Assembly: GCA_900316955.1 (NCBI GenBank)
Contig: ONEX01000021.1
Span: 53,838-117,837, forward strand
Source of the DNA: an uncultured Bacteroidales bacterium
GTDB lineage: Bacteria; Bacteroidota; Bacteroidia; Bacteroidales; UBA932
Direction: 5' to 3'
Length of the DNA: 64,000 nucleotides
Both the position numbers and the translations under genes were made by a program. This document shows positions 11,987-21,635 of this stretch, in pieces (the stretch's first letter is position 1; the number at the start of each line of letters is the position of its first letter). Below the pieces are notes generated by a model. It did not search any database. It was given only the letters and a program-made list of their open reading frames with translations, and was not told where the DNA came from.

Positions 11987-12036
11987 TACAATTAACCACC
12001 TTTCCGAAACCAACACAAACACTAATAGCTACCCTT

Positions 12037-13512
12037 ATGGCAAAAGACATTTCAAGAAGGTCTTTCCTGAAGACAGGAACGGCGGCCGCCCTCGGGCTTT
12101 CCATGATTCCCGGCAAAGTTTTCGCCGACAGTGAAAAACGGGCTCCGGCCCCGCTGAACCGCAAACTCAAGATTCTCGGCGTCGGTATCGGCGGCCGGGG
12201 CGCCAGCGTCCTCCGCGGCCTGGAGACCGAGGAGATCATCGGCCTCTGCGACGTGGACTGGAAGTATGCCGCGCACATCTTCGAGCGCTATCCGAACGCC
12301 AAGCGCTACAAGGACTGGCGCGTGATGTTCGATGAGATGCTGGACCAGGCCGATGCCGTGATGGTCGCCACCGCGGACCACACGCACGCCATCATCGCCG
12401 CGAACGCGATCATGGCCGGCAAGCACGTCTATTGCGAGAAGCCCCTCACCCGGACCGTGTACGAGTCCCGCCTCCTGACCAAGCTGGCCGCGAAGTATCG
12501 CGTCGCCACCCAGATGGGTAACCAGGGCGCTTCCGGCGAGGGCGTCCGCAAGATCTGCAACTGGATCTGGAACGGCGAGATCGGCGAGGTCACCCGCGTC
12601 GAGGCCTTCACGGACCGTCCCATCTGGCCCCAGGGCCTGGAGCGTCCCGCCAAGGCGGAGAAGGTTCCCAAGACCCTCGACTGGGACCTCTTCCTCGGAC
12701 CGGCCCCGTACCGTCCGTACCATTCCATCTATACCCCTTGGAACTTCCGCGGCTGGTGGGACTTCGGCACCGGCGCCCTCGGCGACATGGCCTGCCACAT
12801 CCTCCATCCCGTGTTCAAGGCCCTGAAGCTCGGCTATCCGACCAAGGTGCAGGGCAGTTCCACCGCCCTCCTCACCGAGTCCTGCCCGCAGGCCGAGAAG
12901 GTCCGCTTCGTGTTCCCCGCCCGTGACAACATGCCCAAGGTGGCGATGCCCGAGGTGACGGTGACCTGGACCGACGGCGGCATCCTGCCCGACCGTCCGG
13001 AAGGCCTGCCCGCCGGCAAGAACCTGAACGATTCCGGCGGCGCCGTCATCTTCTACGGCACGAAGGACACCCTCATCTGCGGCTGCTACGGCGTGAACCC
13101 GTACCTCCTTTCCGGCCGCAATCCCGAGGTCCCGAAGCTCCACCGCGAGTTCAACCTCGACCATCAGCAGGACTGGGTCCGCGCCTGCAAGGAGGACCCG
13201 GACTTCCGCACCCCGAGCGCGTCCGACTTCGCCGAGGCCGGCCCGTTCAACGAGATGGTGGCGATGGGTGTCGTCGCCGTGCGCCTGCAGGGCCTGAACC
13301 AGGAACTGGAGTGGGACGGCGAGAACATGCGCTTCACCAACATCCCGGCCGGCGCGACCATCAAGACGATGATCCACGACGGCTTCTCCATCACCGACGG
13401 CCATCCCACGTTCGAGAACGTGTACACCGACCCGGTGGACGCCAACAAGTTCGCCCAGGAACTGATCAAGCCCGTCTTCCGCGACGGCTGGAAGCTCCCC
13501 GAAATGCCTTAA
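12037..13512 (+). CDS. Exported Gfo/Idh/MocA-family oxidoreductase (Tat signal)
   Basis: 491 residues from the ATG at 12037. This start lies after the promoter and gives a twin-arginine signal (SRRSFLKTG), so the longer upstream frame is rejected. The Tat signal implies export with its NAD(P)-type cofactor already bound. The Rossmann segment GVGIGGRG (48-55) and the EKP motif (134-136, Lys135 conserved in the family) are visible, followed by the C-terminal beta-sheet domain. It is followed by DUF1080 (24-base gap) and TIM-barrel (4-base gap) genes. In Bacteroides thetaiotaomicron the equivalent gene set (BT2156-BT2159, from memory) cleaves glycosides through 3-keto intermediates. By analogy this enzyme would oxidise the sugar C3 hydroxyl. 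Substrate unknown. Confidence 0.88.
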   Translation: MAKDISRRSFLKTGTAAALGLSMIPGKVFADSEKRAPAPLNRKLKILGVGIGGRGASVLRGLETEEIIGLCDVDWKYAAHIFERYPNAKRYKDWRVMFDEMLDQADAVMVATADHTHAIIAANAIMAGKHVYCEKPLTRTVYESRLLTKLAAKYRVATQMGNQGASGEGVRKICNWIWNGEIGEVTRVEAFTDRPIWPQGLERPAKAEKVPKTLDWDLFLGPAPYRPYHSIYTPWNFRGWWDFGTGALGDMACHILHPVFKALKLGYPTKVQGSSTALLTESCPQAEKVRFVFPARDNMPKVAMPEVTVTWTDGGILPDRPEGLPAGKNLNDSGGAVIFYGTKDTLICGCYGVNPYLLSGRNPEVPKLHREFNLDHQQDWVRACKEDPDFRTPSASDFAEAGPFNEMVAMGVVAVRLQGLNQELEWDGENMRFTNIPAGATIKTMIHDGFSITDGHPTFENVYTDPVDANKFAQELIKPVFRDGWKLPEMP

Positions 13513-13536
13513 AACCTTAAAAACCAATAAAACTCC

Positions 13537-14388
13537 ATGAAAAAGATTCTTTTGCTTGCAGCGGCTGCTGCGCTGATGGTCACCGCCGTTTCCTGCGGCA
13601 ACCAGGGTAAGAAGAAGGCGGCTGAATCCGCCGTTCCCGCCTACACGGTCGTCGACGCCCCCGAGGTGGACCTGGACGACTTCAAGGTCGATGACGAAGG
13701 TTATATCGTCCTCTTCGACGGCACCTCCACGAAGGGATGGCGCGGTTACGGCAAGAAGGAACTTCCTTCCCGCTGGACCATCGACGACGGCGCCCTCAAG
13801 TTCTCCGGAACCGGCAGCGGCGAAGCCCAGACGGGCGAGGGCGGCGACATCATCTTCGCCCATCAGTTCAAGAATTTCACCCTGGAGATGGAATGGAAGG
13901 TCTCCAAGGGCGGTAATTCCGGTATCTTTTACCTCGCCAAGGAAGTCACCACCAAGGACGAGAACGGCAACGACCGCTACGAGCCCATCTACATTTCCGC
14001 GCCGGAGTACCAGGTGCTGGACAATGCGAACCATCCGGACGCCCTCCTCGGCGTGGACGGCAACCGTCAGTCCGCCTCCCTGTATGACATGATCCCGGCC
14101 GTTCCGCAGAACCAGAACCCGTTCGGCGAGTGGAACAAGGTCAAGATCCTCTGCTACAAGGGCACCATCGTGCACTTCCAGAACGACGTGAAGGTCCTCG
14201 AGTACCACCTGTGGACCCAGCAGTGGACCGACATGCTGCAGGCCTCCAAGTTCAGCGAGAAGGACTGGCCCCTGGCCTTCGAGCTCCTGAACAACTGCGG
14301 CGGCGACGACCACGAGGGTTACATCGGCATGCAGGACCACGGCGACGACGTCTGGTACCGCAACATCCGCATCAAGGAGATGGACTAG
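13537..14388 (+). CDS. DUF1080 (3-keto-glycoside lyase/hydrolase-like) lipoprotein
   Basis: 283 residues with a lipoprotein signal (lipobox AVSC, Cys20). The domain begins with the family-typical LFDGTSTKGWRGYG stretch and shows the concanavalin-like pattern of DUF1080: GNSGIFY, then PEYQVLDN, then GEWNKVKI, ending in WYRNIRIKEMD. Related proteins are named 3-keto-disaccharide hydrolases, and the B. thetaiotaomicron homologue eliminates the aglycone from 3-keto glycosides. Its position directly after the Tat-exported oxidoreductase fits this role: the oxidised glycoside would be cleaved here in the periplasm. Confidence 0.9.
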   Translation: MKKILLLAAAAALMVTAVSCGNQGKKKAAESAVPAYTVVDAPEVDLDDFKVDDEGYIVLFDGTSTKGWRGYGKKELPSRWTIDDGALKFSGTGSGEAQTGEGGDIIFAHQFKNFTLEMEWKVSKGGNSGIFYLAKEVTTKDENGNDRYEPIYISAPEYQVLDNANHPDALLGVDGNRQSASLYDMIPAVPQNQNPFGEWNKVKILCYKGTIVHFQNDVKVLEYHLWTQQWTDMLQASKFSEKDWPLAFELLNNCGGDDHEGYIGMQDHGDDVWYRNIRIKEMD

Positions 14389-14392
14389 CCCT

Positions 14393-15280
14393 ATGAAGGT
14401 CCGTTTCATCCTCCTGTCTCTTCTCGCCGTGGCCGGCGTGTGCGCCTGCGGGCCTAAGGAGAAGGCTCCCGTGAAGAAGGACATGTGCATCCAGATGTAC
14501 TCTGCGCGCAGCCTCATCACCCCGGAGAACTATCCCGACATCCTGAAGGAAATGGCCGCCATGGGCTACACGGCCGTGGAAGCCGCCAACTACAACGGCA
14601 ACGAAGGCCTTCTGTACGGTGACGCTCCCGAAACTTTCAAGGAGAAGGTGGAAGCCGCCGGCATGAAGGTGCTCTCCTCCCACGTCTCCCGCGGTCTTTC
14701 CCGCGAGGAACTGGACAGCGGCGACCTCACCGCCGCCCTGGCCTGGTGGGACAAGTGCATCGACGTCCACAAGCGCGCAGGCATGAAGTACATGGTCACG
14801 CCCGCCATCGGCGGCCAGCGCGACCTCAAGGACCTCCAGGTCTACTGCGACTACCTGAACGAAGTGGGCCGCCGCTGCAAGGCCGCCGGCATCCAGTACG
14901 GCTACCACAACCACGCCTACGAGTTTGAGAAGGTCGAAGGCCAGGTCATGTACGACTACATGCTCCAGCACACGGATCCCGACCTGGTGTTCTTCCAGAT
15001 GGACGTGTACTGGGCGGTGATCGGCAAGGCCTCTCCGGTGGACTACTTCAAGCGCTATCCCGGCCGCTTCACCATGCTCCATATCAAGGACGAGTGGGAA
15101 GTGGGCCAGAGCGGCATGGTCGGTTTCGACGCCATCTTCAAGAACGCGGAACTCGCGGGCCTGAAGGACTTCGTCGTGGAGATCGAGCGCTACAACTACG
15201 AAGACATCCGCAAGAGCTTCCAGGAAAGCGCCGACTACCTCCTCAACGCCCCCTTCGTAAAGGCGACCTACGCGGAGTAA
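14393..15280 (+). CDS. Sugar phosphate isomerase/epimerase-like TIM-barrel lipoprotein
   Basis: 295 residues. The signal ends in G-V-C-A-C, an acceptable though not ideal lipobox. The AP-endonuclease-2/xylose-isomerase-like barrel shows metal-site blocks: Y-T-A-V-E, Y-G-Y-H-N-H, F-Q-M-D-V, L-H-I-K-D and V-E-I-E. These are the usual His/Glu/Asp ligands of a divalent metal. In the 3-keto pathway such proteins hydrate or isomerise the enone formed by the DUF1080 enzyme; here that role is inferred from operon context. Last gene of the operon starting at 12037, with a terminator 22 bases downstream. Confidence 0.87.
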   Translation: MKVRFILLSLLAVAGVCACGPKEKAPVKKDMCIQMYSARSLITPENYPDILKEMAAMGYTAVEAANYNGNEGLLYGDAPETFKEKVEAAGMKVLSSHVSRGLSREELDSGDLTAALAWWDKCIDVHKRAGMKYMVTPAIGGQRDLKDLQVYCDYLNEVGRRCKAAGIQYGYHNHAYEFEKVEGQVMYDYMLQHTDPDLVFFQMDVYWAVIGKASPVDYFKRYPGRFTMLHIKDEWEVGQSGMVGFDAIFKNAELAGLKDFVVEIERYNYEDIRKSFQESADYLLNAPFVKATYAE

Positions 15281-15302
15281 CACGCTGTGTATCAAGAGAA
15301 AA

Positions 15303-15332
15303 GGAGCCGACTCATCTGAGCCGGCTCCTTTA
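15303..15332 (+). terminator. Intrinsic terminator
   Basis: Stem 15303-15309 with 15322-15328 plus an inner CTCA/TGAG pairing, then TTTATT. Ends the oxidoreductase/DUF1080/TIM-barrel operon. Confidence 0.8.
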
Positions 15333-15505: not shown

Positions 15506-16411
15506 TTACGCTTGGTCCCACTGTTTGCGGAGGAGGTCGACGGCGGCGGTGAGGGTGGTGGCGCGGTCGTCGGAGCGGCAGCCGCATTCGAAGCTGACGT
15601 AGTTGGGGTAGGCGAGCTCCTTGAGGGCGCGGAAGCCGTCGGTGTAGCAGTCCTTGTCCCCGTCTTCGCCCGGCATGACGCGGTTGCCGCGGCTGGCGAT
15701 GTGGACGTGCTGCAGGTAGGGGCCAGCGGCCATGAAGGCGGCGTAGTCGGAGGTTTCTTCCTGCATGTGCCAGAAGTCGCCCATGCACTTGACGCCCGCG
15801 CTGCCGGCGTCGCGGCAGATGGCGGCGGCGTCGCCCACCAGGCGCAGGTAGAAGGCTTCCTTGCGGTTGAGGGGCTCCAGGATGACGGTGGTGCCGCAGC
15901 TGAGGGCGAATTCGCCCAGGTCGTGCATCTGCTGGCAGAGGTAGTCGCGCGTTTCCAGCGTGTGGGGGAGGGCGGGATTCTGCCAGTTGAACACCGGGAC
16001 CATGATGACGCCGGTGGAACCGAGTTCGCCCGCGGCGCGGACGATTTCCCGCATCGAGGTGTCGAACTGCGCTTTCACGGCCGGGTCCTCGGCCAGGATG
16101 AAGCCGTCGAAGCCGGCGCAGATGGCCGAGACTTGGATGCCGCGGCCCTGCAGGGCTTCGCGGATTTCCTGGACGCGGCCGGCGAGGCCCTTGCCGCCGG
16201 GCTCGAAGCCCACGATGCCGAGCTTTTCCATGAAGTCGAGCTTATCAGCGAGGGTTTCGCCTGGGGTGACGCCCTCCTGGAAGGAGAGGCGGAGGGGAAC
16301 GGAAGGCTGCTTCTTCTCCTTGGGGGAGGCGCAGGAGACGAGGGCGCCGGGGGCGGCCACGAGGGCGGCCGCGCCGGCGACGGTAGTTCTCAGAAAGGTT
16401 TTCCTGTCCAT
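15506..16411 (-). CDS. Exported sugar phosphate isomerase/epimerase-like TIM-barrel protein
   Basis: 301 residues. The N-terminus has a Tat-like RKTFLR segment (one of the two arginines replaced by Lys) and a lipobox-like LVSC (Cys27). The barrel carries metal-site blocks G-F-E-P-G, V-I-L-E-P-L-N, M-G-D-F-W-H-M, H-V-H-I-A and F-E-C-G-C, as in the xylose-isomerase-like family. It is the last gene of a minus-strand operon with the oxidoreductase at 16421 (9-base gap) and the cytochrome fusion at 17801. It is a distant paralogue of the lipoprotein at 14393, so the window holds two oxidoreductase/TIM-barrel sets. Confidence 0.85.
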   Translation of the reverse strand: MDRKTFLRTTVAGAAALVAAPGALVSCASPKEKKQPSVPLRLSFQEGVTPGETLADKLDFMEKLGIVGFEPGGKGLAGRVQEIREALQGRGIQVSAICAGFDGFILAEDPAVKAQFDTSMREIVRAAGELGSTGVIMVPVFNWQNPALPHTLETRDYLCQQMHDLGEFALSCGTTVILEPLNRKEAFYLRLVGDAAAICRDAGSAGVKCMGDFWHMQEETSDYAAFMAAGPYLQHVHIASRGNRVMPGEDGDKDCYTDGFRALKELAYPNYVSFECGCRSDDRATTLTAAVDLLRKQWDQA

Positions 16412-16420
16412 ACGCGAAGC

Positions 16421-17779
16421 TTATTTGCCCTTGCCGGGGACCTTGACGGTGTAGGCGCTCATGTCCATCTTGCCCAGTTCCAGCTTCTCCGGAAGGAGAT
16501 CCAGCTCGGCGGCGCTGATGGCATCCCATTCGACCGTTTCGCCGGTGTAGGCGGCGACCCGGCCCATGATCCCGCACAGGGAAGAGATGCCGCATTCGGT
16601 GGCTTCGTTGTGCATTTCGCCCTTCCGGATGTGGTTCACCCAGTCCACGTGCTCGAGGACATAGGCGTTCTCCTGCTTGTAGGTCGCCCGCATGGCGTCG
16701 TAATCGAACTCCCAGATCTTGTTTCCGTCGAGGTCGAAGATGGCGTCGTCGGCCGATTTCCAATAACCCTTCGTGCCCCGGACCTCCTCGCTGACATTGT
16801 TCGAGCAGCCGTCGATCTGGCGGCACATGCTATGGAGGTGGACGCCGTTCTCATATTCGAAATCGACGCTGAAATTGTCGTACTGGTCGCCGGTGATGCG
16901 GCGCTGGCGGCTGCCGAAAGCCGTGGCGCGGACCGGCCGCTTGTACCCGTTCATCCAGTTGAAGACGTCGATATTGTGGACGTGCTGCTCGACGATGTGG
17001 TCGCCGGAGAGCCAGGTCCAGTTCACCCAGTCGCGGATCATCCATTCCATATCGCTCCAGCCCTTCTGGCGCTCGCGGTACCAGAGCATGCCCTGGTTCC
17101 AGTACACGTTGCCGCCGGTGATTTCGCCGATGAGGCCTTCCTGGATTTTCTGGAAGGCTTCCACATAGGGACGCTGGTGGTGGCGCTGGGTGCCGCAGAC
17201 CACGCTCAGGCCCTTGGCCTCGGCCTGCTTGGCGGTGGCCATGATGGTCCGGTAGCCCTTGGCGTCCACGCAGATGGGCTTCTCCAGGAAGGAATGGACC
17301 CCCTTGGAGGTGGCGTACTGGAAATGGATGGGCCGGAACACGGGCGGGGTGGCCACGATGACCATGTCCACGCCGGAGTCGATGACTTTCTGGTAGGCGT
17401 CGAAGCCCATGAAGCAGTTCTCCTCGGGCACCACCTGGCCGAATTCCCGCTCGATGGCTTCGCGCGTATCGCGGATCCGGTCGGGGAAGACGTCGCCGAG
17501 GGCGGTGATGGTGATGCCGTCCGCGGCGGTGAGGAGGTCGCCCACGGCGCCGTTGCCGCGGCCGCCGCAGCCGATCAGGCCGCACTTGAGAGGACGGCCG
17601 TCGATGGCCTTGTCCGGCAGTTCGGGAACGTAATAGGAACCGGGTTCGCGGAGCGGGCTGGCTTTGCCGTCCTTCTTTCCGCCGGAGCAGGCGGTGAGAA
17701 GCTGTCCGCCCACCAGACCGGCCGCGCCGACGACGGCAGTGGTCGTGAGGAAGGACCTTCTGTTCATTTTTGCGCTCAT
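16421..17779 (-). CDS. Exported Gfo/Idh/MocA-family oxidoreductase (Tat lipoprotein)
   Basis: 452 residues. Twin-arginine motif NRRSFLTTT at 6-14 and a lipobox L-L-T-A-C (Cys31), so it should be exported folded with its cofactor and then lipidated. Start could be 17779 or the internal ATG at 17767. The Rossmann segment GLIGCGGRG (67-75) and EKP (166-168) are typical of the family. The C-terminal domain has H-H and W-rich blocks (GDHIVEQHVHNIDVFNW) seen in glycoside-oxidising members. It sits between the cytochrome-FGE fusion (21-base gap) and a TIM-barrel gene, which suggests that re-oxidation of its nicotinamide is coupled to that cytochrome. That link is inference. Confidence 0.88.
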   Translation of the reverse strand: MSAKMNRRSFLTTTAVVGAAGLVGGQLLTACSGGKKDGKASPLREPGSYYVPELPDKAIDGRPLKCGLIGCGGRGNGAVGDLLTAADGITITALGDVFPDRIRDTREAIEREFGQVVPEENCFMGFDAYQKVIDSGVDMVIVATPPVFRPIHFQYATSKGVHSFLEKPICVDAKGYRTIMATAKQAEAKGLSVVCGTQRHHQRPYVEAFQKIQEGLIGEITGGNVYWNQGMLWYRERQKGWSDMEWMIRDWVNWTWLSGDHIVEQHVHNIDVFNWMNGYKRPVRATAFGSRQRRITGDQYDNFSVDFEYENGVHLHSMCRQIDGCSNNVSEEVRGTKGYWKSADDAIFDLDGNKIWEFDYDAMRATYKQENAYVLEHVDWVNHIRKGEMHNEATECGISSLCGIMGRVAAYTGETVEWDAISAAELDLLPEKLELGKMDMSAYTVKVPGKGK

Positions 17780-17800: not shown

Positions 17801-19321
17801 TTATTCGATATTGTCCGGAACTTCGCACACGACGCGGAAGCCGATGGCCTTGACGTCGGAGTACCACCAGATGCTCTTGGGGTTCTGCGGGTCCGTCCGC
17901 AGCCAGTCGTCGTGGCGGGTGTGGCTGCGCGCGGCGCAGCGCACGGCGCCGGCGTCGTCGGCATAGGAGCCGCCGCGGACGACGAACTCGTCGCCCTCGG
18001 CCGGGCCCTTCGGGTCCTGGGTGCCGTCGGGAATCCGGGCGTAGGCGTCCTCGGCATAGCGGTCGGCGCAGTATTCCATCACGTTGCCGAGCATGTTCTT
18101 GAGGCCGAAGGGATTGGCCTTGACCTCCTTGGGTTCCTGCGTCCGGGACGGGGAATTGCCGCTGTACACCACGTAGCGGGCGATCATCGTCGTATCCGCC
18201 CCGAAGAGGCTGCGGAGGCCCTTGGGATCGAGCTTCTTGGGATCGCCTTCGAAGAAATACGGCGTATCCGTGCCGCCGCGGGCTGCATATTCCCATTCCG
18301 CCTCGGTGGGGAGGCGGTAGGTCTTGCCGGTCTTGAGCGAGAGCCACAGGCAGAAGGTCTCCGCCGCGTAGTGCGTCATCGTGATGGCGGGCCGTTCGCC
18401 CATGCCCCAGCCCTGGTCGGGGAAGCCGAACGGCGGGGTGGGGCCGCTGACGGCGTCCAGTCCGGGCCGGCTGTTCGCCTCGTAGATGACGGAGGGCGGC
18501 GTACGGCCCTCGGACATGGTCTCGTTGTAGAAACTCCAGAACTGCCGCCAGGTAATCTCGGTCTCCGCCATGAAGAAGCGGGAAATGCCGACCCGCTTCT
18601 GCGGGCCTTCGTCGGCGCCGCGCCGCGGCTCGTCCGCGGGGCTGCCGAGCAGAAACTCGCCGCCCGGGATGGCCACCATCCGGATGGCGGCGTTCGTGCC
18701 GGGGACGGTCTCGGTGAAGGATTCGAAACGCTCGGGGACCGCCGGCGCCGTGTAGATCTCCCCGGAGCCGGTGTCCACCTTGCCCTGCAGCTTCTGGTGC
18801 GTATAGCCCTCGATGTAGTGGCCGGCGTTGAGGTGGCAGCTCACGCAGTTGAGCTTGAGCTTCTCGTGATTCTCGTCGTAGTAGAGGTGCGCGGCGATGC
18901 CGTCGTCGCTGATGCCTTCCGGGTACAGGTTCTCGTGGCACTTCACGCAGGAGGCGTTGTAGACGATGCGCGGAGCGTAGTCCACCTGTCGCTTGGCGGC
19001 CCAGTCGATGTCCTCCTTGTCTTTCACCATCTTCGCCCAGATGTCCTTGGCGCCCATCCGGAGCTTGACCATGTAGTAGCGGACGACGCCGTCCTCCTTG
19101 GGAGGCAAATGACAGGCGGCGCAGTCGGTGACTACGCCGCTTTCATTCAGGTAATGGTCCGATTGTTTCCAGAGACGGTCCGCCTCCTCGTGGTAGTGGC
19201 AGCGCATGCAGGAGTCGTTCGTGGACGTGTGCGTGTCCACGCTGACGAGAACCAGCATCAAGGCGACGCCCAGCGCCAGACCGCCCAGGATGGCTCCCCA
19301 GATGATGTGCTTTTTCTTCAT
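17801..19321 (-). CDS. NapC/NirT-type tetraheme cytochrome c fused to an FGE/SUMF1-like domain
   Basis: 506 residues. One N-terminal membrane anchor (about 6-27) is followed by four CxxCH haem sites at Cys38, Cys67, Cys125 and Cys159, the count and spacing of a NapC/NirT/NrfH quinol-oxidising cytochrome. From about 213 the protein is a formylglycine-generating-enzyme-like domain (start MVAIPGGEFLLGS, then RLPTEAEWEYAARGG, LGNVMEYC and RGGSY at 449-453). The active FGE signature has two cysteines after RGGS; here only Cys462 follows, so sulfatase-maturing chemistry is unlikely. The domain may be a binding module. First gene of the operon with the oxidoreductase and TIM-barrel genes; it could take electrons between the quinone pool and the exported enzymes. 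Confidence 0.9.
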   Translation of the reverse strand: MKKKHIIWGAILGGLALGVALMLVLVSVDTHTSTNDSCMRCHYHEEADRLWKQSDHYLNESGVVTDCAACHLPPKEDGVVRYYMVKLRMGAKDIWAKMVKDKEDIDWAAKRQVDYAPRIVYNASCVKCHENLYPEGISDDGIAAHLYYDENHEKLKLNCVSCHLNAGHYIEGYTHQKLQGKVDTGSGEIYTAPAVPERFESFTETVPGTNAAIRMVAIPGGEFLLGSPADEPRRGADEGPQKRVGISRFFMAETEITWRQFWSFYNETMSEGRTPPSVIYEANSRPGLDAVSGPTPPFGFPDQGWGMGERPAITMTHYAAETFCLWLSLKTGKTYRLPTEAEWEYAARGGTDTPYFFEGDPKKLDPKGLRSLFGADTTMIARYVVYSGNSPSRTQEPKEVKANPFGLKNMLGNVMEYCADRYAEDAYARIPDGTQDPKGPAEGDEFVVRGGSYADDAGAVRCAARSHTRHDDWLRTDPQNPKSIWWYSDVKAIGFRVVCEVPDNIE

Positions 19322-19328
19322 GTGGTTA

Positions 19329-19360
19329 GAAGACCTTTCGCAAAAGGTCTTCCAAACTTA
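19329..19360 (-). promoter_or_regulatory. -7 promoter element with hairpin in the 5' leader
   Basis: TAAGTTTG on the minus strand at 19353-19360 fits TAnnTTTG and lies 31 bases before the cytochrome-fusion ATG. Between them is a perfect 10-bp stem (19329-19338 with 19343-19352), 7 bases before the start codon. It would fold in the leader of this mRNA, or act as terminator for the esterase gene upstream. Confidence 0.55.
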
Positions 19361-19385
19361 CGAAAAAAAAGCCGGAATGTCAAGC

Positions 19386-20471
19386 CTATTTGAACAGGGT
19401 GGGGGCGAGGGTCTGGAGGTCGGCGCGCCAGGTGGCCCAGCTGTGGCCGGCCTGGGCGTTCTCCATGTACTCGTACTGGAGGCCGTCCTTGTCCAGCTGC
19501 GCGCGGGTGTTCTTGCAGTTCTGGTAGGCGATGTCGGTGGGACCGCCCTGGGTGAAGACCATGCGCTTGAACTGCTTGTTCATCTTCGCGACGTTCTCCT
19601 TGACCTTGAGGCGGGCGGATTCCGCGGCGGGATCCTGGCCGGGGGCGAAGGAGGCGCTGAGCACCCACACATAGCGGAACAGCTCGGGATGGTTGAAGGC
19701 GGTCTCGATCGTCTCCATGCCGCCCATGGACAGGCCCGCCATCGCGCGGTTGTCCGCGTCCGTCTTCACGTTGTAATTGGCCTCGATGAACGGGATGATG
19801 GAAGTGACCATGTCCTCGGCGAACGGGGGAACCTCGTTGGGCACGTTGGTGATCGTTCCGTTGGGCATCACGACGACCATCGGGACGATCTTACCCTCGG
19901 CGAGGAGGTTGTCCAGGATCCAGCCCGCGGCGCCTACACCGGGCCAGGAGGCGTCGTTGTCGCCGCCGCCGTGGATGAGGTACAGCACCGGCAGTTTCGC
20001 ATTGGACTTCTCATACCCGGCCGGGGTCCAGACGTGCATGCGGCGCATCTCGCCCAGCGTCTTGGAGAAGTAGAACCGCTGCGCCACCGCGCCGTGCGGG
20101 ACATCCTTGATGTAGCTTTCGCCCACGGTCAGGAGCGAGGACTGCTCGGCGGAGAGGGAAGCCTTCGGGTCCTGCACCCGCACGCCGTCCACGGTGAAGT
20201 TGTAGCGGAAAACACCGTCGCCCAGGCCTTCGCAGACGCCTTTCCAGACGCCGTTCTCGGCCTTCTCGAACTTGACGGGCGCGTTCCAGGGCAGGTCGCC
20301 GGAGACGGACACCGTCTTGGCTTCCGGGGCATAGATCTGGAAGAGCACCTTCCCGTCGGGGAGGACGCGGGTGGACTTGAGCGTGTCGTTGGGGGTGGGA
20401 CGGCGGCCCCACTGGGCGGCCATCGGCAGGGTGCAGCACACGGCTGCGAGGAGAATCAGGATGCGTTTCAT
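19386..20471 (-). CDS. Exported CE1-like carbohydrate esterase with N-terminal CBM48-like domain
   Basis: 361 residues from the ATG at 20471. A longer frame would start above the promoter. Signal peptide ends near P-M-A-A-Q. The early-set domain spans about 35-105, and the hydrolase domain has GLSMG (Ser248) and a C-terminal Q-A-G-H-S-W-A-T-W block with the likely catalytic His. Third member of the same esterase family in this locus. Transcribed alone from the promoter at 20492, upstream of the cytochrome operon. Confidence 0.88.
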   Translation of the reverse strand: MKRILILLAAVCCTLPMAAQWGRRPTPNDTLKSTRVLPDGKVLFQIYAPEAKTVSVSGDLPWNAPVKFEKAENGVWKGVCEGLGDGVFRYNFTVDGVRVQDPKASLSAEQSSLLTVGESYIKDVPHGAVAQRFYFSKTLGEMRRMHVWTPAGYEKSNAKLPVLYLIHGGGDNDASWPGVGAAGWILDNLLAEGKIVPMVVVMPNGTITNVPNEVPPFAEDMVTSIIPFIEANYNVKTDADNRAMAGLSMGGMETIETAFNHPELFRYVWVLSASFAPGQDPAAESARLKVKENVAKMNKQFKRMVFTQGGPTDIAYQNCKNTRAQLDKDGLQYEYMENAQAGHSWATWRADLQTLAPTLFK

Positions 20472-20491
20472 ATCAGGGTTTTTGTACGGGA

Positions 20492-20499
20492 CAAAGATA
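20492..20499 (-). promoter_or_regulatory. Bacteroidetes -7 promoter element
   Basis: TATCTTTG on the minus strand, 21 bases before the esterase ATG at 20471; it sets the start choice for that gene. Confidence 0.65.
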
Positions 20500-20561
20500 G
20501 GGCTTTCGGACGGCAAACCTTATCCCGTCCGTACAATTGTTTCCCCGATTGTTCAATGTGA

Positions 20562-21635
20562 TTACGCCTCTTCCAGCAGTCGGACGCCGGCCTGCTCGCC
20601 GATGGCTTGGGTGCGGTTCATCACGGTGGTGAGCATCAGCATGTTGGCGGCGATTTCCTGCACGGTGGCGTCCTCGCTGGCCTTGAGGGAGTACCAGTTC
20701 TTGTCGCGATAGTCCTCGATGGTATCGACAAAGTCCACGCGGTCGCCGAAGCGGCCCCGGATGCTGTCGTGCAGGGCGCCGGTGTACTGGTTGCACAGGG
20801 CCGTGACCTCCTCTTCCATCCCCACCTTGACTTCCTGCGCGCGTACATTGCGATATTGCTCCTTCAGGGGCTCGTACTCCTTGTCCTGGCGGATTTCGGT
20901 CTTGTCGCCGGAAATCTTCAGGATCTCCACCCGGTCGATGTCGCCGTGCTCGGGCTCCAGCTCGCTGGTGATGTCGTGCAGTTTCTGGAACCGGACGCCG
21001 TAGAAGAGGACCTTGCCGTCCTCCAGGGCGTACATGATCTTGCTGAAGTCGATACCCAGGGACACCTTGTAGTAGAACTTGTGGATATAGAGGATCTTGC
21101 GGATGGAGGCTTCCTTCAGGAGGGAGTCCTCGAGGATGGTCTCGAAGAATTTCCGGTCGGGAACGTTGAACTGTTCGCGGTCCAGGGCGTCCACTTCCTC
21201 CTCCTTCACGACGTAGCCCTGCTTCGCGTATTCCATCTGCTCCACCTTGAAGGTGTAGTCCAGCCGGACGGGGAGGGCGCCCGTCTGCACGCGGGTGTCC
21301 AGCTTGTCGGCGAGGGTGCGGTTCTCCAGCTCCAGGACCTCCACCTTCCGCTCCAGTTCGCGGTCCTTCTCCATCTTCTCGATGAGGGCCTGCTGGCGCT
21401 CCATCAGGCTGTCCTGCAGCCAGCTGTTCAGCGGCTTGAAAGCCAGGAAGGTGAGGATGAGGGTGACGGCGTTCGAGAGGACGATCGCGAGGCCCGAGAC
21501 GATCCGCGGAAAGAGCAGGAAGAAAGCGATATTGGCGGCCACCAGCAGGAAGCAGCCGGCGATCCAGAGGGTGTTCTTGACGCTGCGGCCCTTGTCCAGG
21601 GCATATTTGAATATCTTGTCTCCAGTCTTGCTCAT
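20562..21635 (-). CDS. Membrane protein with two TM segments and a coiled coil, function unknown
   Basis: 357 residues. Two hydrophobic helices at about 22-44 and 46-66 are followed by a charged coiled coil (about 75-115: QDSLMERQQALIEKMEKDRE and onward) and a mixed alpha/beta region with a repeated E/K pattern. No signal peptide and no catalytic motif. The topology suggests an inner-membrane hairpin with a large cytoplasmic part. It is divergent from the LolA-like gene and shares a short promoter gap. I do not recognise the family. Confidence 0.8.
   Translation of the reverse strand: MSKTGDKIFKYALDKGRSVKNTLWIAGCFLLVAANIAFFLLFPRIVSGLAIVLSNAVTLILTFLAFKPLNSWLQDSLMERQQALIEKMEKDRELERKVEVLELENRTLADKLDTRVQTGALPVRLDYTFKVEQMEYAKQGYVVKEEEVDALDREQFNVPDRKFFETILEDSLLKEASIRKILYIHKFYYKVSLGIDFSKIMYALEDGKVLFYGVRFQKLHDITSELEPEHGDIDRVEILKISGDKTEIRQDKEYEPLKEQYRNVRAQEVKVGMEEEVTALCNQYTGALHDSIRGRFGDRVDFVDTIEDYRDKNWYSLKASEDATVQEIAANMLMLTTVMNRTQAIGEQAGVRLLEEA

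Follow-up and report, generated by a model that had tools for sequence, protein, structure and literature searches.

The window analysed here, a stretch of 64,000 nucleotides (nt) of contig ONEX01000021.1 from an uncultured Bacteroidales bacterium, carries at 17801-19321 on its minus strand a gene whose product joins a tetrahaem cytochrome of the NapC/NirT type to a domain of the FGE family (hereafter the fusion). Directly downstream, at 16421-17779 on the same strand, lies a gene for an oxidoreductase of the Gfo/Idh/MocA family (hereafter Gfo). The architecture of the fusion had been proposed in an earlier reading of the DNA letters without database searches (the sequence-only reading) and is confirmed by the open reading frame of 506 amino acids (aa) and by Pfam, in which Cytochrom_NNT (PF03264) spans residues 4-169 (E 6.5e-22; 78.5 bits against a cut-off of 24.1) and FGE-sulfatase (PF03781) spans residues 214-468 (E 5e-37; 128.4 bits), in agreement with homologues and a structural model. 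The four CxxCH sites and the one membrane anchor of that reading were also found, the former beginning at residues 38, 67, 125, and 159 and kept in 60/60 homologues, the latter as a single N-terminal helix (residues 2-32) in an AlphaFold2 model built from a 57-row alignment (pLDDT 86.3, pTM 0.84; pLDDT below 50 at residues 272-280 and 282-292).

Domain make-up of the fusion protein

The first haem site of the cytochrome half (residues 38-42; 19196-19210, minus strand, as for all features of this gene) is followed by His44 (19190-19192) and so reads CxxCHxH, not CxxCHxM; the second (residues 67-71; 19109-19123), third (residues 125-129; 18935-18949), and fourth (residues 159-163; 18833-18847) were placed by alignment of homologues. 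In an alignment with 2j7a_C, the stretch from Lys86 to Asp93 (19043-19066) brings these two residues, invariant in 60/60 homologues, opposite Lys82 and Asp89 of NrfH, the former a residue of the quinol site. Lys82 and Asp89 are conserved residues of NrfH, which anchors its complex and meets the quinone pool (PMC4683180). Quinone contact of the fusion is supported because the equivalents of both residues are conserved. The position of NrfH Met49 is occupied by His44 in all 60 homologues, and the methionine ligand of haem 1 that the CxxCHxM pattern would supply is therefore missing; the available passages of PMC10654088 describe this methionine as indispensable to NrfH when it oxidizes menaquinol. 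In summary of the likenesses, the cytochrome half shares with NrfH/NapC/CymA proteins (PF03264; 2j7a/2vr0) the N-terminal helix, the four CxxCH sites, and the Lys82/Asp89 equivalents, and differs from them in the CxxCHxH at haem 1, the large C-terminal FGE-like domain, and the Gfo/Idh neighbour.

Haem incorporation into the protein is likewise supported, since a cytochrome-c assembly protein is encoded in 47/48 of the fused genomes searched and, at six fused loci, genes resembling ResB and CcsA stand in the same gene row at positions +3 and +4 (one example of each confirmed by Pfam). In three genomes (G096, G183, and G189), the CcsA gene near the fusion is the only match in the genome.

The FGE-like domain (residues 214-468; 17918-18682), delimited by Pfam, homologues, and profile alignment, retains core FGE motifs such as RLPTEAEWE and GN..E. 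It had been described in the sequence-only reading as having its two active cysteines reduced to one; alignment with human FGE and the 60 homologues indicates instead that both are missing. The first catalytic cysteine of the wild-type human enzyme (1y1e) falls in a three-residue gap of the fusion family in the profile alignment, and the second faces a non-cysteine consensus residue (the numbers of the pair, C336 and C341, were taken from titles of mutant structures). The remaining cysteine of the window protein, C462, lies opposite the later cysteine of human RCAARS, that is, outside the catalytic pair, and is present in 34/60 fusion homologues; no column with cysteine in at least three of the 60 sequences occurs at residues 454-461. 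Sulfatase maturation by the fusion was rejected on account of the missing pair. Beyond the Pfam domain follows a subfamily signature, W..TDPQ.PKS.WW..D (residues 473-489; 17855-17905; homologue alignment), of which D477, P478, Q479, S483, W485, and W486 are invariant across 57 rows. The domain thus has the fold and core motifs of FGE/SUMF1 relatives (PvdO, SUMF2, PorK/GldK, EgtB) and is unlike them in lacking the cysteine pair, in its extra DPQ.PKS.WW loop and D..[ST]G[PA]T loop, and in its fused haems.

The best fold matches of the model are PvdO (5hha) and then FGEs, and a catalytic role has to be weighed in which the FGE-like domain would act on the Gfo product, as PvdO does on dihydropyoverdine, with the cytochrome as electron acceptor. 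The name of the NCBIfam family, dihydropyoverdine dehydrogenase, and the invariance of the six signature residues would suit such a catalyst. The fusion nevertheless scores only 93 bits against the 500-bit cut-off of the PvdO model, and the idea is considered quite improbable.

Conserved pairing with a Gfo/Idh/MocA oxidoreductase

The Gfo protein contains a Rossmann domain (PF01408), and its residues E166, K167, and P168, the EKP motif with the catalytic lysine, are invariant in 56/56 sequences. That it is exported by the Tat pathway, as the sequence-only reading had it, is in line with a TAT_signal match above the cut-off; a lipobox (LTAC) is also present, so that the product looks like a Tat lipoprotein, a detail which that reading had lacked. 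The protein scores 22.5 bits on the BT_2158_fam model (cut-off 750), and its nearest solved sequence is glucuronide-3-dehydrogenase (8tdi; 34 bits).

Matches listed for the fusion comprise 124 distinct fused places, the window and some fragments included; from the 123 others, 60 were taken with wide flanks, picked for long surrounding DNA and spread, and together with the window and 10 named relatives (among 80 loci listed) they make up the 71 fused loci discussed below. The named relatives come from Bacteroidales, Bacteroidia, and Bacteroidetes bins, Tannerella, Parabacteroides sp. ZJ-118, Sunxiuqinia, and Maribellus. The sequence-only reading had named loss of the neighbourhood in most relatives as something that would refute it, and its proposal withstood this test: a profile made from the Gfo sequences of these loci places a Gfo gene within 600 bp of the fusion in 67/71 of them. 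Unfused FGE proteins with a DP[QN].P.S.W signature have Gfo within the same distance in 46/64 loci, against 0/24 loci of other FGE-family members, and after collapsing at 70% identity, the pairing stands at 33/35 fused, 41/52 unfused, and 0/24 other FGE loci. The gap between fusion and Gfo measures 2-117 bp in 48/56 pairs. A profile search (E 0.001) makes the fusion the sole Cytochrom_NNT match in its own genome, and six Gfo matches were found there; with so few matches in that genome, and with the adjacency recurring in 67/71 fused loci, chance is a poor explanation. Three genomes (G501, G575, and G589) carry two fusions each, every one with Gfo at +1.

The converse search, with 1.5-kb flanks and one locus per genome, covered 29 loci of Gfo relatives besides that of the window and found an FGE gene in 16, signature-bearing in 15. 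Distance matrices of the two partners correlate (Spearman 0.73 for 111 pairs, 0.51 for 67 fused, and 0.58 for 44 unfused), and none of 300 permutations reached the observed values, species kinship not being removed from either. A number of observations weigh against the pairing. Four fused loci (L107, L108, L124, and L126) have no Gfo neighbour, of which L126 belongs to a genome (G409) carrying a second fusion, L127, with Gfo; 18/64 unfused loci lack Gfo within 600 bp, some of them stopping at contig ends; 13/29 Gfo relatives are not flanked by any FGE gene; and at L246 (2850-4004), an FGE that keeps its cysteine pair (GGSFLCNASYC) adjoins a Gfo of this family. Taking both sides together, a partnership of the fusion and Gfo is very probable.

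This pairing also bears on the more conventional reading, in which the protein would be an NrfH homologue serving NrfA, or a sulfatase-maturing FGE, with Gfo as an incidental neighbour. NrfH is the closest solved cytochrome of the NapC type, the Pfam match is to FGE, and NrfA is present in 16/48 of the fused genomes searched. At E 1e-10, however, NrfA has no match in 32/48 of these genomes, among them the genome of the window, and a role with NrfA was rejected for these 32 (completeness is under 90% in 4 of the 48). The fusion moreover scores 55.2 bits on the NrfH model TIGR03153 (cut-off 134.2) and remains below the NCBIfam cut-offs for both NrfH and NapC; with the FGE cysteines gone and Gfo at 67/71 loci, the conventional reading is largely refuted and barely conceivable.

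Fusion-protein matches were found in 58/299 sampled genomes of the same family, 51/393 of the order, and 51/395 of the phylum; in the phylum sample, full fusions are confined to three genomes (that of the window, G402, and G1028), the remaining places listed covering the FGE part alone (from residue 191 or later). By itself, the FGE part is also found in Acidobacteria, Planctomycetota, Verrucomicrobiota, and other Bacteroidota. On the gene order, the FGE-like protein and Gfo are a wider two-protein module across phyla, because unfused homologues adjoin the same Gfo family in 46/64 loci. A rough criterion picked out signal-peptide-like starts in 42/64 of the unfused FGE proteins. A tree of 67 rows (20/71 fused, 37/64 unfused, and 10/24 other; rows with short aligned pieces were dropped and the others capped in number) unites the fused rows (100*), sets the unfused signature rows next to them (99*), and separates the two together from other FGEs (97*); it was made by a quick method without bootstrap, its root was not inferred, and the motif columns were kept in. 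The cytochrome was probably joined only once to a member of the FGE-like/Gfo pair, since the fused rows form one group.

A lipobox was detected in Gfo in 65/67 fused pairs (the two misses, L122 and L141, are positive by another lipobox pattern) against 2/46 unfused pairs. It is suggestive only that in the fused lineage both partners would be membrane-tethered together; fusion, lipobox, and the missing adjacent ApbE gene considered below may each reflect a single event, which leaves the association statistically weak and counts against building on it. At five loci of Verrucomicrobiota (L163, L168, L170, L171, and L184), FGE-like proteins of the same subfamily carry one or two fused cytochrome c domains of the PSCyt1 type. 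These were set aside as proof by independent cytochrome fusion, Gfo being adjacent only at L170, and a yield of 1/5 is unfavourable to the proposed partnership.

ApbE, a candidate flavin, and a proposed route of the electrons

Among the unfused signature loci, a gene for ApbE lies within 6 kb in 25/64, against 0/24 other FGE loci, within the limits of the flanking DNA (Fisher p 3.7e-10 for the comparison with fused loci and 1e-4 for that with other FGE loci, not kinship-corrected). The neighbour is an FAD:protein FMN transferase (PF02424, 259 bits in one example), and alignment shows a catalytic-type histidine in 25/25 of these proteins. ApbE is encoded somewhere in 48/48 fused genomes. A redox activity of the FGE-like part itself is possible, because in other phyla the FGE-like protein and Gfo occur without this cytochrome and often beside ApbE.

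The target motif of ApbE is D-x-x-[ST]-G-A-[ST] in the available passages of PMC12052999. By motif likeness, the loop DAVSGPT (residues 289-295; 18437-18457) is a candidate site of attachment of FMN, with Thr295 as the candidate residue. Across 71 fused proteins, this loop has D in 71, S/T in 68, G in 71, P in 58 or A in 13, and T in 71. The pattern D..[ST]G[AP]T is found in 68/71 fused proteins and in 1/912 background genes (each 250 aa or longer); the exact D..[ST]GA[ST] is found in 10/71 fused, 3/64 unfused, and 2/912 background proteins; and the loose D..[ST].[AP][ST] is found in 57/64 unfused and 0/24 other FGE proteins, the homologues counted here not being independent of one another. 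In unfused pieces spanning the loop (26 near ApbE and 39 without), D is constant, the last residue is always S/T, and G is usually replaced, in most cases by Arg. Other candidates for the target of ApbE were considered and rejected: adjacent Gfo proteins carry the loose motif in 0/113 cases, and no other gene of the ApbE loci has the canonical motif consistently.

Several findings weigh against the flavin. Within the limits of the flanking DNA, an ApbE gene was found within 6 kb in 0/71 fused loci; the loose motif is not rare, occurring in 26/912 background genes; it is present in 10/15 signature FGE genes of the converse search and missing from 5; and D-A-V stands at the same place in an ordinary FGE of T. 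curvata. The canonical motif fails precisely in the unfused proteins with ApbE nearby, 19/26 pieces having Arg in place of Gly. Flavinylation of about 50% is given for the changes Gly to Ala and Ala to Val in the available passages of PMC12052999, which mention neither Pro nor Arg, and these non-canonical residues are the chief weakness of the reading. A covalent FMN on the FGE-like module, suggested by gene neighbourhood and motif, is accordingly put forward as a tentative proposal, more doubtful than not.

Two further rows of genes with ApbE were noted. Elsewhere in the own genome (locus L270, contig C22, 6512-11697), a Tat-type Gfo, an ApbE gene (110 bits, no clear signal peptide), and a second Gfo frame stand in a row that also holds a gene resembling, by eye, a 3-keto-disaccharide hydrolase. 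At two loci of Maribacter (L162 and L198), genes for an FGE-like protein, YceI, and ApbE follow one another, and no Gfo gene accompanies them.

In the path that best accommodates these observations, the fusion would form a redox pair in the periplasm, of which it would be the half anchored in the membrane. The N-terminal NrfH/NapC-like tetrahaem part would touch the menaquinone pool; the C-terminal part belongs to a distinct FGE-like subfamily (DPQ.PKS.WW) encoded beside a Tat-exported Gfo family across several phyla. The Gfo lipoprotein of the window would oxidize a sugar, probably at C3, using tightly bound NAD, and electrons would leave the bound NADH via the FGE-like module and the four haems to menaquinone. 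Flavins are the usual converters from two-electron to one-electron transfer, and it is fairly possible that a covalent FMN on Thr295 of the DAVSGPT loop would serve as this step. The reaction is likely to be oxidation of a sugar or uronide at C3, because Gfo is nearest to glucuronide-3-dehydrogenase and the third gene of the row is nearest to 3kws and to a 3-keto-D-glucoside 4-epimerase. The transfer of electrons from NADH to menaquinone is downhill. As a whole, the path from sugar through NAD in Gfo, the FGE-like module, and the haems to menaquinone is judged just probable; that sugar oxidation is in some manner linked to the quinone pool is judged modestly probable.

The sequence-only reading had treated the FGE-like part as a docking module; in the strict form of that version, it would be nothing more, and the haems would take electrons directly from NADH bound to Gfo. 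A conserved pairing in which the FGE active site is lost would be expected of such a module, and FGE-like folds are structural elsewhere (PorK/GldK and a variable protein of T. denticola). Docking alone leaves unexplained, however, the ApbE gene beside 25/64 unfused relatives and the conserved loop motif. The direct transfer of a hydride to haem normally requires a mediator, as general biochemistry has it, and the step from a hydride (two electrons) to a haem (one electron) without flavin is left unaddressed by that version, which is considered unlikely.

The direction of flow is a separate matter. NapC/NirT proteins are known as quinol oxidizers, which is the opposite direction, and NapC/NrfH proteins are so described in the available passages of PMC10654088; this tells against the proposed path and favours one in which menaquinol would deliver electrons through the haems to the FGE-like/Gfo pair for the reduction of a keto-sugar or another periplasmic substrate. 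Keto-sugars may be produced next door by the BT_2158-type genes at 12034-15280. Such a reverse flow is opposed by the histidine at the haem-1 position, where the methionine tied to quinol oxidation is lost in all 60 homologues, and also by energetics, the reduction of NAD by menaquinol being uphill; it is considered unlikely. The same histidine is awkward for the path toward menaquinone as well, as is one fused genome (G291) in which no cytochrome-c assembly match was found.

The premise of the sequence-only reading that exported Gfo enzymes lack an obvious way of recycling their cofactor is wrong in general. In the available passages of PMC11239390, the Gfo enzyme DgpA regenerates NAD with 3-oxo-glucose in a ping-pong cycle, and BT2158 is described as a periplasmic glycoside 3-dehydrogenase in those of PMC11300592. 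The window Gfo resembles the periplasmic glycoside 3-dehydrogenases (BT_2158, DgpA, 8tdi) in its family, its Rossmann and EKP motifs, and the sugar genes around it, and is unlike them in its low BT_2158_fam score and its FGE/cytochrome neighbour, recycling with 3-oxo-glucose being the solution of DgpA (PMC11239390, same passages).

Surrounding genes and significance

The third gene of the row (15506-16411, minus strand) encodes a TIM-barrel protein like sugar isomerases/epimerases, with matches to 3kws, a putative sugar isomerase (402 bits), and 6wn6, a 3-keto-D-glucoside 4-epimerase (86 bits); homologues of at least 150 bits occur in 34/71 fused loci. Convergent with this row, on the plus strand at 12034-15280, are genes for a glycoside 3-dehydrogenase of the BT_2158 family (837.7 bits, above the cut-off of 750), a 3-keto-disaccharide hydrolase, and a further TIM barrel. 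A common operon with these genes was rejected, a BT_2158 homologue being near the fusion in 4/71 loci, the window included. Between the convergent rows lies a terminator-like inverted repeat (15300-15331; 15 nt, 93% complementary), perhaps a two-way terminator. At the other end, a strong hairpin covers the start codon of the fusion (19309-19372, minus strand; z -5.6), with a counterpart at L005 (z -4.3) and none at L006, and a TAnnTTTG box stands just upstream. The box TAAGTTTG, immediately 5' of the fusion start, is of the Bacteroides -7 type. That the fusion leads an operon, as the sequence-only reading had stated, is plausible: the TAAGTTTG box fits a promoter of its own, although genes of the same strand continue upstream, beginning with an esterase (19386-20516). 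At 20562-21635 (minus strand) lies a gene for a 357-aa protein without Pfam or NCBIfam match at 0.01.

Among the titles listed by full-text searches, with most subscription papers and bioRxiv outside their scope, none concerned a NapC-FGE fusion or an FGE-Gfo pair, and the locus is a recurrent combination of a known type of quinone cytochrome with a new partner module. With the ApbE-flavinylated carriers (FMN-bind, NqrC/RnfG, DUF2271, DUF3570, and flavinylated Flavodoxin_4), which have an adjoining apbE gene, the D-x-x-[ST]-G-A-[ST] motif, and an extracytosolic location (PMC8238504, PMC11334425, and PMC12052999, available passages), the FGE-like proteins may be compared on each count, though apbE is near only 25/64 unfused and 0/71 fused members and the motif is similar rather than exact in most; they are unlike them in that the Ala of the motif is often Pro and, in unfused members, the Gly is often Arg. 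No ApbE substrate of FGE fold is mentioned in the available passages of these three papers. The DPQ.PKS.WW subfamily may conceivably be a new kind of domain for electron transfer, covalently flavinylated by ApbE and reduced by sugar dehydrogenases that depend on NAD and are exported by Tat; it would be fused in Bacteroidales to a tetrahaem quinone reductase and served in other phyla by other acceptors, a reading held with less than even confidence.

Oxidoreductases that act on sugars with NAD and are exported abound in these bacteria, and the conserved pairing of cytochrome, FGE-like domain, and Gfo makes their possible link to respiration directly testable. It also suggests what many FGE proteins without the cysteines, a sizeable group that profile libraries class with sulfatase-modifying factors, might do. 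If the FMN reading is true, an unexpected fold would join the flavinylated electron carriers, and if the proposed path is true, Bacteroidales would possess a respiratory sugar:menaquinone pathway outside the cytoplasm.

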